Source: Pseudogemmobacter hezensis (GTDB taxonomy: Bacteria; Pseudomonadota; Alphaproteobacteria; Rhodobacterales; Rhodobacteraceae). From it: DNA of 64,000 bases. The position numbers were made by a program, and so were the translations under genes. Below the pieces are notes generated by a model. That model searched no databases. It was given only the letters and a program-made list of their open reading frames with translations, and had not been told where the DNA came from. Shown here piece after piece: positions 46,410 through 51,702 of this stretch; the first letter of the stretch is position 1, and every line of letters starts with the position of its first letter. Where the stretch lies: assembly GCF_013155295.1 (NCBI RefSeq), contig NZ_JABJXT010000008.1, forward strand, positions 62,001 through 126,000, read 5' to 3'.

Positions 46410-46915
46410 TCAACGCAGTCGCAACATTTTTCGGGATCGGCCATCTGCGCCCGGCCTCGGGCACCTGGGCCTCGCTGGCGGCGGTGCTGCTGGGGCTTTT
46501 GGCGATGAACCAGGGGCTTTACTGGCTGGTGCCACTGGGCGCGGTGGCGGCCACGGTGCTTGGGTTTTGGGCGGTGCCGCTTTATCTGCGGGGCCGTGAT
46601 GACAGCGACCCCTCTGAGGTGGTGATCGACGAGGTGGCAGGCCAGTGGATCGCGCTTAGCTTCACCGCGATTCCGGCGATGAACCACGGCCTTTATATCG
46701 GGCTGTGGTGGGGGGCCTGGCCTGCCTGGGTCGCGCCTTTCGTGCTGTTCCGGCTGTTTGACATCTGGAAGCCCTGGATCATCGGCCAGGCCGACCGTCG
46801 TGGCGATGCGGCGGGGGTGATGCTGGATGATGTCTATGCGGGGCTGTTCGCGGGCGTGGGATCTGTAATCCTGGCGGGGCTTTATCATGCGGTGCTGCAA
46901 CCATGGCTGATGTGA
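46406..46915 (+). CDS. pgpA: Phosphatidylglycerophosphatase A
   Basis: 169 residues, inner-membrane enzyme that dephosphorylates phosphatidylglycerol phosphate. PgpA motifs: [15 protein letters not shown] (N-terminal), [14 protein letters not shown] (acidic metal site), [16 protein letters not shown] and MLDDVYAGL. Membrane helices at ~20-60, ~88-115 and ~140-160. ATG overlaps the ispDF stop (ATGA), and its end overlaps the pncC gene by 13 bases. Confidence 0.95.
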
Positions 46916-47403
46916 TCGCAACCCTCGCCGAGGCGGTGCTGCAAGAGGCCCGTGCCCGCGCCCAGATGGTCACCACCGCCGAAAGCTGCACCGGGGGCAT
47001 GGTCGCAGCGGCGCTGACCGAAATCCCCGGCGCATCCGATGTGTTCGAGCGCGGCTTTGTCACCTATTCCAATGCCGCAAAGCAGCAGATGCTGGGCGTC
47101 TTTGAGAAAACGCTGAGCGCCCACGGCGCGGTCAGCGAAGAGGTCGCCCGCGAAATGGCCGAGGGCGCGTTGGCCCATTCGCTGGCGCATATCGCGGTCT
47201 CTGTCACCGGGATCGCAGGCCCTGGTGGCAGCGAGCATAAGCCCGAAGGCCGGGTCTGCTTTGGCCTGGCACAGCGCGGGCGGGCAAGCGTGACCGAGAC
47301 CCGCGATTTCGGCCCTCTGGGCCGGGCAGAGGTGCGCAGACAGGCCACAGAATATGCGCTGCGCCTGTTGCACAACCAGCTGAAACCTTCCGCGCTGGCC
47401 TGA
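46903..47403 (+). CDS. pncC: Nicotinamide-nucleotide amidohydrolase (CinA C-terminal domain protein)
   Basis: 166 residues, the stand-alone CinA C-terminal domain without the N-terminal MoaB-like part. Deamidates NMN to nicotinate mononucleotide, a salvage step in NAD metabolism. Signatures TTAESCTGGMVAAALTEIPG and VTGIAGPGGSEHKPEGRV are complete. It is the last gene of the ispDF-pgpA-pncC coupled set. A 9-bp repeat (CCCCTGTGC, three copies) follows shortly after the stop. Confidence 0.93.
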   Translation: MADVIATLAEAVLQEARARAQMVTTAESCTGGMVAAALTEIPGASDVFERGFVTYSNAAKQQMLGVFEKTLSAHGAVSEEVAREMAEGALAHSLAHIAVSVTGIAGPGGSEHKPEGRVCFGLAQRGRASVTETRDFGPLGRAEVRRQATEYALRLLHNQLKPSALA

Positions 47404-47544
47404 ACGGATCTCGCGCCCTGGGCCAGGCCTGCCTGCGCCCCTGTGCCCCTGTGCCCCTGTGCCCCGCCTGGACCGCCGCCAATCGCAGGCGTCAAGGGGC
47501 GCCTGCGACATTATCCGGCGCGGCCTTTGATCCCCGGCAGATGC

Positions 47545-48348
47545 TTACAGCTGCACCCTGGTCACGCCTTCGGGCAGGATCTGCCCTGGCCGCGCGGTCA
47601 TCAGGACCGACAGCTCGCTCTCGCCCGCCAGCAGCCCCAAAACCTGGGTTGCGGCAGGCTCGATTTCGTCCAGCGCCAGCACAAGCACACCGGGGCGGTG
47701 CACCAGCGCAAGCGCGATCCGCAGCGCCAGCCTTTGCGCCGAAGCAAGGCTGCCCAGTTTCGCCCCGGCCAGCGCCCCCAGCCCGACCAGATCCAGCGCA
47801 TCGGTGATGGCCTGGCGCTGATCGGGGTCATGCACCTCGCCCCAGTCGCAGCCCCGGGGCAAGACCTCTCGCACCAGGGTCTGCCAGAGGCTCGCCTCAG
47901 GATCGCCCTGATCCGGGGCGGGCAGCCAGGCGATCTTGCTGCGGATCTCAGCCGGGCTGAGCAACCAGATATCGCGCCCATCAAGGCAGACCGTGCCCGC
48001 AAGCGCCGCCGCCCGGCGGGTGACCAGGTCCAGGACCCCCTCGGCCAGGACCGGGTCGGCGCTGCAAAGCGCAATCTTCGCCCCGCGCGGCAGGCTAAGG
48101 CTGAAACGCGGCCATTTGCGCCGATCCTGCGCCAGCGGCTGGCCGGGCAAGACAACGCGGCGCAGCTCTATCGCGGGCAGAGCCTGAGGCTGGGGGGGCT
48201 GAGACCGCGACGCCAGGGTCAGAGCGGCAGTGTCTGGGAATGGGGCTATGCGGTTTGGGGCGGGATCAATATGGCGTGGCGCGGGCAACAGCCCATGTTT
48301 GGCGACAGCGCTATCTGGCCCGGGGGACCGGGGGCTTGCAGAAATCAT
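47545..48348 (-). CDS. ABC-ATPase-like protein lacking a P-loop, under a B12 riboswitch
   Basis: 267 residues. After ~58 Pro/Ala-rich residues, the sequence follows a FecE/BtuD-type ABC ATPase: IELRRVVLPG, then LDGRDIWLLSPAEIRSKIAWLP (quoted in part), and a helix ending DALDLVGLGALAG. The Walker A site reads CSADPVLAEG (~95-104) instead of GxxGxGKS. The signature is LASAQ (~201-205) rather than LSGGQ. Walker B VLVLALDE (~221-228) is kept; the H-loop His is absent (LMTARP). It should not hydrolyse ATP normally. ATG 48348 has AAGGAG six bases upstream. It is the only gene behind the riboswitch at 48395-48602, and no btuC or btuF is adjacent. Confidence 0.75.
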   Translation of the reverse strand: MISASPRSPGPDSAVAKHGLLPAPRHIDPAPNRIAPFPDTAALTLASRSQPPQPQALPAIELRRVVLPGQPLAQDRRKWPRFSLSLPRGAKIALCSADPVLAEGVLDLVTRRAAALAGTVCLDGRDIWLLSPAEIRSKIAWLPAPDQGDPEASLWQTLVREVLPRGCDWGEVHDPDQRQAITDALDLVGLGALAGAKLGSLASAQRLALRIALALVHRPGVLVLALDEIEPAATQVLGLLAGESELSVLMTARPGQILPEGVTRVQL

Positions 48349-48394
48349 CAAAATCTCCTTCCGGGACTCCCCGCCCCGGCTGAAAGGTGGTCGT

Positions 48395-48602
48395 GATGAT
48401 GGCAGGTCTCCTGACTTGCGGGTCGCGGCCCCTCTTCGCCTTCCCGACCCGTCAGGGCCAGTGGCTGCTGAAGAAAGGCTCGCCGCTTACAGTTGCGGGG
48501 GCAGTCGGGGATTTGGCACCAAAAGCGCCGCACCCCGTTCCCTTTTCACCCGCTGCCCGCACCCCGGGACTTGCCCGAAGGATGGCAGCAGGAACCATCT
48601 CC
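48395..48602 (-). promoter_or_regulatory. Cobalamin riboswitch upstream of the ABC-like gene
   Basis: On the minus strand, conserved B12-riboswitch elements appear in order: P1 strand GATGG (48599-48595), GGGAACGGGGTGCGG, GGTGCCAAATCCCCGAC, the CCCGCAACTGTAAGCGG core, and the 3' box GTCAGGAGACCTGCC with closing CCATC. It ends ~47 bases before the ABC-like ATG, so it probably controls translation initiation or transcript elongation of that gene. Confidence 0.92.
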
Positions 48603-48770
48603 CGCAGGGAAACGCCGCAGGCAGGCCACGTCAAGCCTTTTTGGCCATTGGGCCGATGACAAAACGCCCCGCTGCCGCCGGATTGCGCGCATGAAAGTGC
48701 TGCGGCGGACAACGCCCGCGTTTGCGAAATGATGTTTGTGACTGCGCCTGCCCGGCGATCAATGGGGCAA

Positions 48771-48953
48771 TCAGTGCGGCAAGCCGGGCCGCAGACGGTT
48801 GACCTTCAGCCATTCGGGCCAGCCCCAGAGCCATTCTGCCCCGGCGATCAGCAGCGCGGCCGCGATCACCCCCAGCACCAGCAGCACCCGGCTCATCGGA
48901 GGCGGATTCCTTGCCCAGCGGGACGCGCGGATCATCCATGCCATTATGTTCAT
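48771..48953 (-). CDS. Small single-helix membrane protein, hypothetical
   Basis: 60 residues. One clear membrane helix (VLLVLGVIAAALLIAGAEWLW) follows a short basic N-terminus; the tail is GWPEWLKVNRLRPGLPH. An internal ATG at 48896 would give a 41-residue form starting directly before the helix (MSRVLLVLG). It lies 51 bases downstream of hpt on the same strand, so may share its transcript. No family recognised. Composition and helix quality support a real gene, but moderately. Confidence 0.5.
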   Translation of the reverse strand: MNIMAWMIRASRWARNPPPMSRVLLVLGVIAAALLIAGAEWLWGWPEWLKVNRLRPGLPH

Positions 48954-49004
48954 CGAGCAGCCTTCCCTCTGTCCTGCGCTGATCAGACCTGAGCCAGACC
49001 TGAC

Positions 49005-49625
49005 TTAACCCTGATCGGTAAACCGGACCTTGCCGATATAGGGAAGGTTGCGATTGCGCTGCGCGAAATCAATCCCATAGCCGACGACAAACTCATCGGG
49101 GATCTCGAATCCGGTCCAGCTGGCGCGGATCGGCACCTCGCGGCGCGAGGGCTTATCAAGCAGCGCACAGATCTCCAGTCGCTTTGGCTGGCGCGACATC
49201 AGCAGGGTTTTCACATGGGTCAGCGTGTGTCCGGTATCGACGATATCCTCGACCACCAGCACGTCACGGCCCTGGATCTCGCCGCGCAGATCTTTCAGGA
49301 TCCGCACCTCACGCGAGCTTTGCGTCGTATTCCCGTAAGACGAGGCCTCAAGGAAATCGACCTCGACGGGCAGGTTAATCTCGCGCACCAGATCGGCGAT
49401 AAAGACGAAAGAGCCGCGCAGCAGCCCGACCACCACCAGCTTTTCGGTGTCATGAAAGGCCTGGGTGATCTCACGCGCGAGGGTCTCGATACGCGCGGCA
49501 ATCGCCTTGGCGCTGATCAGCTGATCAATGACATAGGGGCGTGCAGTGGCGGGCGCAGAAGCAGGCGCGGTGGTGGCCACAGGGCCGGACGGGATGGCAG
49601 AGGGATCAGAGGTGGAATTGGTCAT
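49005..49625 (-). CDS. hpt: Hypoxanthine phosphoribosyltransferase
   Basis: 206 residues. Purine salvage: hypoxanthine (and guanine) plus PRPP to IMP or GMP. PRPP-binding loop [17 protein letters not shown] (~125-141), [13 protein letters not shown], and the C-terminal [20 protein letters not shown] are typical. The N-terminal ~30 residues are Thr/Ala/Pro-rich and outside the fold. ATG 49625 is preferred over ATG 49637 because AGG lies just upstream. It is divergent from the COQ10-like gene. Confidence 0.94.
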
Positions 49626-49820
49626 CGGCCTGGGCATCGGAATGGGTCAAAGATAACGCGGCACCGCCGGGGATTGTGGAGATGCAGCCTTCCTTTTCGC
49701 GCCTATTGCGTGGCGGGAAAAGCGGAAACTGGGGCCCTAAGCCTGATTCCTGTGGTCATTGCCCTTGAAATCCCCGCCCTGGGGGGCGAGATGGGGCCAT
49801 AGCCGAAACGACGGTCTGAA

Positions 49821-50273
49821 ATGCCAAAGCACAACGAAACCCGCAATCTGCCCTGGACGGCACAGGAGATGTACAATCTCGTGGCCGATGTCGAAAGCTA
49901 TCCGAAATTCCTGCCCTGGAATGCGGCGGCGCGGATCCGCTCGCGCAGGCCGGTCGAGGGCGGCGAATTGCTTGAGGCGGATCTGGTGATCTCGTTCAAA
50001 GTCTTCCGCGAGCGTTTTGGCAGCCGGGTGACGCTTTTGCCCGGGCAAAAACAGATCCTGACCGAGTATATCGACGGCCCCTTCCGCTATATGCGCTCGA
50101 ACTGGGGGTTTCGGGATCTGGACAGCGGCGGCTGCGAGGTGACCTTCTTCGTCGATTTCGAGTTCAGGAATGCGATCTTGCAGGGCGTGATCGGGCTGGT
50201 GTTCAATGAGGCCATGCAGCGCATCGTCCGCGCCTTTGAACGCCGCGCGGCCGAGCTTTACGGCGCCAGATAA
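49821..50273 (+). CDS. COQ10/RatA-like START-domain protein
   Basis: 150 residues, a polyketide cyclase/START fold covering the entire protein. N-terminal LPWTAQEMYNLVADVESYPKFLPW and C-terminal NEAMQRIVRAFERRA are the family markers. In mitochondria and alphaproteobacteria such proteins bind ubiquinone and help its function in respiration; in E. coli the homolog is named RatA. The ubiquinone role is the likelier here. It is convergent with bluB. Confidence 0.9.
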   Translation: MPKHNETRNLPWTAQEMYNLVADVESYPKFLPWNAAARIRSRRPVEGGELLEADLVISFKVFRERFGSRVTLLPGQKQILTEYIDGPFRYMRSNWGFRDLDSGGCEVTFFVDFEFRNAILQGVIGLVFNEAMQRIVRAFERRAAELYGAR

Positions 50274-50279
50274 ACCCGC

Positions 50280-50352
50280 CGCCGGATGGGTGCCTCCCGC
50301 CGGATTGGTGCCCCCTCGCCGGGGCGGGCGGCCCCCTTGGGGGAATCCGCCC
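50280..50352. terminator. 18-bp direct repeat plus hairpin between convergent genes
   Basis: Two 18-bp copies (50280-50297 and 50298-50315; consensus CGCCGGATKGGTGCCYCC) are followed by a nested inverted repeat GGGCGGCCCCC-TT-GGGGG-AAT-CCGCCC (50326-50352). It separates the COQ10-like gene from bluB. There is no U-tract, so termination is only a possibility. Confidence 0.5.
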
Positions 50353-50358
50353 AGGCCA

Positions 50359-51702
<1,344 letters not shown>

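Follow-up and report, generated by a model that had tools for sequence, protein, structure and literature searches.

The window, a stretch of 64,000 nucleotides from Pseudogemmobacter hezensis (genome G000 below), contains a cobalamin riboswitch followed by a gene for a degenerate ABC ATPase. This open reading frame (ORF) very probably originates as a dead BtuD, the ATPase of a vitamin B12-type importer. On the whole it is probably best described as an orphaned, catalytically dead BtuD relic, which was kept for a role other than ATP hydrolysis after catalysis had been lost and which is now being lost itself.

Organization of the riboswitch-ATPase locus

The features of the locus are listed in Table 1. 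The aptamer, identified by cmscan with an E-value of 6.5e-32, is complete, as the preliminary description had stated, and lies upstream of the start codon, which places the ORF in a cobalamin riboswitch regulon. The spacing of 47 bases given earlier has to be corrected to 35 bases between the Rfam match and the ATG at 48348. The open frame extends over 47545-48351 (minus strand) and, read from this ATG, has the 267 codons described before. Its codon-usage score is the best of the six frames (0.24, compared with 0.26 for bluB, outside the training set, and 0.30 for hpt, inside it), and is low across roughly the first 100 codons.

Table 1. Features of the locus, with positions in the window.
Feature	Positions	Strand	Basis
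Cobalamin riboswitch aptamer (RF00174)	48384..48614	-	cmscan, 128.3 bits (gathering 31.5), whole model 1-189
Hairpin with 7-bp stem (CCGGGGC/GUCCCGG), directly 5′ of the Shine-Dalgarno sequence, presumed expression platform	48361..48379	-	folding
Shine-Dalgarno sequence AAGGAG, six bases 5′ of the ATG	48355..48360	-	sequence
Gene for a 267-aa BtuD-like ABC ATPase, catalytically dead by prediction (pseudo-NBD)	47545..48348, stop included	-	ORF, profiles, alignment
NBD-like part, about residues 62-267	47548..48165	-	AlphaFold model m34cbd8669caa, pLDDT of ten-residue blocks 70-95

The hairpin in front of the Shine-Dalgarno sequence is presumed to control the gene as its expression platform; this assignment is a presumption because stable folding is seen for the window sequence (z -2.4) but not, when taken on its own, for its counterpart in the five relatives folded alongside (z -1.3 to +1.4). 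Since the riboswitch and the ribosome-binding site are both whole, control by adenosylcobalamin is expected. As the class of the riboswitch suggests, low adenosylcobalamin would allow translation of the ORF and abundant adenosylcobalamin would prevent it, so that B12 would act as a repressor.

The neighbouring genes were named by eye as cinA, hpt, a coq10-like ORF and a bluB-like ORF. In agreement with the preliminary description, neither btuC nor btuF adjoins the ATPase gene, and the gene adjacency of a BtuFCD importer is absent here. The genes cinA, coq10-like and hpt are adjacent in all seven relatives examined (of the 12 other genomes of the genus), and at this locus none of the seven contains an ATPase or riboswitch stretch in the 8-9 kb fetched. 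Compared with the same seven relatives, hpt-coq10 is inverted in the window (47404-50300), and the cassette of riboswitch and ATPase gene borders the inversion on one side. Capture by a mobile element was considered and rejected, all repeats found in 46900-51700 being short and imperfect. A second cobalamin riboswitch (51211-51388, minus strand; 101 bits) lies about 2.6 kb from the first and leads the ORF at 50359-51666 (minus strand), which is presumably bluB-like.

ABC fold and loss of the ATP-handling motifs

Profile comparisons indicate that the similarity to ABC ATPases, on which the preliminary description was built, is weak but real. The ORF matches the Pfam model ABC_tran (PF00005) with 25 bits, exactly at the cut-off (E 3.2e-5), and its best NCBIfam model is FecE with 31 bits (E 1.3e-7), far below the cut-off of 375. 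A profile of nine intact relatives finds the stop-to-stop frame with an E-value of 2.6e-14, at rank 2 of the 896 window frames of at least 40 residues. With hhalign, a profile of three degenerate sequences matches the ATPase of G003, a genome of the same genus, with a probability of 99.2%, and against solved chains the same profile has nucleotide-binding domains (NBDs) of ABC transporters among the best 60 of its 239 matches.

The structure prediction proposed earlier as a check likewise yields an ABC NBD. The AlphaFold model based on seven sequences has the NBD fold with a pLDDT of 80, although its input alignment includes intact relatives, which was counted against the argument for a kept fold. 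The best Foldseek match of this model is an ABC ATPase (E 9.6e-13), and the 50 matches listed are ABC ATPases or ABC-transporter subunits. When only the three degenerate sequences are used, the pLDDT is 57 and the Foldseek matches are again ABC ATPases. To judge from these models, the ABC NBD fold is kept in the window protein.

ABC ATPases handle ATP with a set of well-known motifs. In an alignment with relatives, Walker A (GxxGxGK[ST]) is absent from the window protein, which reads CSADPVLAEGVL instead, and the position of the LSGG signature is occupied by LASAQ (LASAQRLA), both as claimed before. The column of the Q-loop glutamine holds an alanine (AWLPA), and there is no H-loop histidine within the aligned segment. 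The reported survival of Walker B arose from a register error: in register, VLVLAL stands opposite VLVLDE-like segments of the relatives, the columns of Asp and Glu are occupied by Ala and Leu, and the DE of the window protein sits two residues downstream of these columns. With five motifs gone (Walker A, Q-loop, signature, Walker B and H-loop), a working ATPase is ruled out on sequence; the protein would be catalytically dead, and is expected neither to hydrolyse ATP nor to supply the missing half of a composite ATP site. The earlier designation as a cobalamin-controlled pseudo-ATPase fits the whole riboswitch, the predicted fold and the missing motifs.

In the columns of Walker A and the signature, shared replacements occur in the window copy, the copy in G001 (Paracoccus sp. 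IB05) and a second copy on contig C28 of G000. This suggests that both losses predate the split of the three, and constraint on the protein would thus be post-catalytic. The three copies also have in common a derived CDWGEV segment, which is absent from the aligned intact ATPases of G003 and of G034, a genome of another genus.

Probable origin from a riboswitch-led importer operon

In G003 and G034, the only genomes among the pattern sites described below in which the flanks were read to the end, an intact ATPase gene is part of an operon with the order riboswitch, DUF1636, ATPase (btuD), btuF-like and btuC-like. Matches of the operon genes include DUF1636 with 81 bits (G034) and Peripla_BP_2 with 89 bits (G003); the models nearest to the permease are F420-0/BtuC, below their cut-offs. 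The operon ATPase resembles that of the window in its riboswitch, its Shine-Dalgarno hairpin, its ABC fold and a GRD[IL]WL motif. Unlike the window copy, which lacks them all, it has the P-loop, the Q-loop glutamine, LSGGE, LDE and the histidine, and in G003 and G034 it adjoins btuF and btuC. ATPases of the operon kind are also present in G070, G379 and others.

An exact pattern search with the Shine-Dalgarno hairpin sequence GGCGGGGNGNCCCGGAAGGAG gave 15 sites, distributed over 12 of 394 family genomes, which were sampled almost one per genus. An ATPase with an intact P-loop lies downstream of 11 sites, two sites are the dead copies of G000 itself and two have no ATPase; the pattern misses some members, such as the riboswitch-led copy of G011. 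A profile of the window, G001 and G005 (Pseudogemmobacter humi) copies matches 77 of the 394 genomes at E ≤1e-14, its own genome counted. The P-loop is kept in 19 of 19 fetched loci other than its own (18 by pattern, and L178 through L123, where its gene was read), the degenerate G011 copy being matched by the profile outside these 19. Six candidates were scored per genome, and weak degenerate copies elsewhere may be missed.

The closest known systems also include the Fe(3+) dicitrate ATPase FecE and the vitamin B12 ATPase BtuD, FecE being the best NCBIfam model in spite of its low score, but their catalytic motifs are absent from the window protein. Heterodimeric ABC transporters can have degenerate nucleotide-binding sites; one composite site works in them and the membrane partner is kept. 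The window protein resembles their degenerate NBD in its loss of catalytic residues, and differs in that no motif is left and no cognate partner was found. A literature search listed nothing on the window gene or its module; PMC4520260 deals with a model of DUF1636 as a thioredoxin-like ferredoxin fold, and cobalamin regulons are a subject of PMC3766115.

Copies within the genus

Cobalamin riboswitches are present in all 13 genomes of the Pseudogemmobacter-like genus. An intact ATPase is found in one genome (G003) and an open but degenerate, riboswitch-led copy in five (G000, that of the window, G001, G002, G005 and G011), while in G004, G006, G008, G009 and G010 a profile search with the window and G001 sequences gave nothing that exceeded the ABC background. 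The ABC_tran scores are 113 bits for G003, 76 for G011, 49 for G002, 35 for G005, 27 for G001 and 25 for the window. The P-loop lysine is retained in the G002 copy, which is preceded by a DUF1636-like ORF (36.5 bits), and the Q-loop glutamine in that of G011.

Three further copies are broken. The C28 copy of G000 is frameshifted and its riboswitch is truncated, with none at the gathering score; the window gene, previously called lone, is so at its locus but not in its genome. At the 5′ riboswitch side of the C28 copy lies an ORF named by eye, which is taken to be transposase-like from its IS3-type motifs. The copies of G007 and G012 occupy the same fabI locus as that of G001 and are missing the 5′ half and the riboswitch; the G007 copy has six one-base indels relative to G001. 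By eye, the surroundings differ among the copies of the window, G001/G007/G012, C28, G005, G002 and G011.

A wide species scan gave 12 loci, two of which were judged by eye to be true relatives (Paracoccus sp. IB05 and P. humi); the other 10, which match parts of the query with 24-53% identity, were taken for ABC ATPases of other kinds and left out. No plasmid relatives of the ORF were found at E 1e-5.

Two riboswitch-led DUF1636-like ORFs, a lone one in G009 (L064:181-597) and a degraded one in G011 (L059:1067-1471), are other leftovers of the DUF1636-btuD-btuF-btuC operon. In G011 a gene for a TonB-dependent receptor (L122:4228-6294, minus strand) follows the degenerate ATPase; it scores 420 bits with a copper-receptor model, for which the cut-off is 472.

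Phylogeny and selection

In a tree of 18 rows, in which long branches make deep placement unsure, the window copy groups with G001 (support 100/99) and both with G005 (98/95). The G011 copy, with an end branch of 1.66, groups (96/88) with the intact ATPase of G003, whose end branch is 0.13, and the degenerate copies evolve fast. On this tree motif loss took place separately in the G011 copy and in the window clade, and probably separately in G002 as well.

Identities between the window and G001 copies are.613,.642 and.428 at codon positions 1, 2 and 3 over 243 codons, of which the first two are somewhat inflated by the protein-guided alignment. Tests with a custom codon-likelihood script gave an omega of about 0.07 for the intact branches and 0.32 for the G011 branch, where omega=1 is rejected by 6.8 lnL. 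For the window branch omega=1 is rejected by 6.3 lnL with 14 rows (p about 4e-4) and by 3.0 lnL with four rows (p about 0.014), and for all branches of the four-row set by 119 lnL; the point estimates for the window clade were saturated (about 0.01), unusable and discarded. In a neutral simulation that started from the G001 gene, a frame free of stops had a probability of about 0.01 for t 0.5-0.6, falling to 0.002 for t 1.0. Past constraint on the ORF at the protein level is thus statistically supported.

The frame of the window ORF is open and neutrality is rejected on its branch, and at the sister locus change appears to have been near-neutral of late: mismatches between G001 and G012 are even across the codon positions (11/9/12), as under neutrality, those between G001 and G007 being 8/9/19. 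These even mismatches and the indels of G007 make a present role of the window copy less likely, and its retention of a non-ATPase role today is somewhat doubtful.

Partner genes and a second importer

No close orthologue of the operon BtuF or BtuC was found in G000, G001, G002, G005 and G011 (best matches 31-34% for BtuF, with none in G011, and 39-41% by E-value for BtuC); the binding protein of the DUF1636 operon was searched in six genomes, with G006 and G010 outside this set. As the preliminary description had surmised, a B12-type importer is encoded elsewhere in G000: contig C25 carries a riboswitch-led btuFCD-like operon with a binding protein, a permease and its own complete ATPase. To judge from their riboswitches, both importers would carry B12; the nearest model of the C25 binding protein is the siderophore protein EitA (318 bits, cut-off 640). 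This binding protein occurs at 46% identity or more in nine of the 13 genomes, each time directly behind a riboswitch by coordinates, and these include G000, G001, G002 and G005, four of the five genomes whose dead copy is open. It has no match in G006, G010 and G011, and only a 32% relative of its own in G003, which fits the replacement of one importer by the other.

Other riboswitch-led loci were observed in the genus. On contig C5 of G004, one identical block occurs in three copies (44957, 140196 and 261290; L161, L162 and L067), with identity over 6.7 kb between two of them and over 3.4 kb to the third, as fetched; by eye it contains a MerR-like gene, a cobalamin riboswitch and cbtAB-like genes. 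The riboswitches L004 (G000 C10:26967-27176) and L118 (G001 C14:92418-92631) lead ORFs that by eye resemble Rieske-type ring-hydroxylating oxygenases, an unusual target of a cobalamin riboswitch.

Discussion

At the level of sequence, the riboswitch, the fold, the loss of motifs, the kinship with the operon ATPase and the lack of close partner orthologues can be regarded as established. In the preferred explanation the window ORF would be the orphaned ATPase gene of a lost B12-type importer operon (riboswitch - DUF1636 - btuD - btuF - btuC). Its product would have lost five motifs, at least Walker A and the signature before the window copy and its nearest relatives separated. Because constraint as a protein persisted after the loss of catalysis, it would probably have served B12-starved cells for a long time in binding or as a scaffold, independently of ATP, and the gene would now be eroding and disappearing within the genus. 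Counted against this explanation are the broken C28 copy, the cut-down copies of G007 and G012 and the near-neutral change between G001 and G012.

The same broken copies and even codon positions speak for a plain decaying pseudogene, in which the importer was replaced, selection ended, the frame is open by chance and only the riboswitch looks fresh. Such decay is also in line with the loss of every catalytic motif, the close partner orthologues that were not found, the end branch of G011 compared with that of its intact sister, and the other riboswitch-led btuF-type gene in most of the genus. It is nevertheless rather unlikely, since the window branch rejects neutrality, the first two codon positions are far better conserved than the third, and neutral drift would seldom have left the frame without a stop. 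The decay that the preliminary description had offered as an option is borne out as far as the normal P-loops outside the genus and the fast evolution are concerned, but not by the window frame, which has no frameshift. That the RNA is the working part, persisting as a regulatory RNA with the ORF as a passenger, is very improbable. The riboswitch is better conserved than the ORF (about 80% identity over 206 nt between the window and G001) and also precedes the DUF1636-like remnants of G009 and G011, but the ORF shows codon-level constraint behind an intact Shine-Dalgarno sequence and start codon, and no riboswitch is left where the ORF has been cut down (G007 and G012).

The preliminary description had further envisaged a partner or regulator of the surviving importer. 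The dead NBD would then dock on the BtuC-like permease or on BtuD and tune uptake under starvation, in keeping with its predicted fold and with a riboswitch of the same class as that of the C25 operon. This role is improbable and did not find support: the C25 operon already holds a complete ATPase, a mixed dimer without a complete ATP site would, by argument, lower uptake just when B12 is scarce, and in G011, which has an open dead copy, neither kind of btuF passed the thresholds of the search. A mixed ATPase dimer with the C25 BtuD was itself rejected by argument, as it would have no complete composite site. An extension of the preferred explanation, in which a genus-specific class of cobalamin-riboswitch-controlled pseudo-ATPases arose by at least two independent motif losses and was kept for ATP-independent use in B12-starved cells, is unlikely.

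The locus cautions that a riboswitch and an ABC fold are insufficient to name a gene a B12 transporter. Here a metabolite riboswitch would have outlived the transport system that it governed, the RNA remaining whole while the ATPase lost its catalysis, and this loss would have occurred in more than one line within a single genus. If a role of the protein is confirmed, the window gene would represent a natural example of an ABC nucleotide-binding domain that is used independently of ATP; if there is none, it would provide a well-resolved record of how a B12-type importer decays step by step once it has apparently been replaced.
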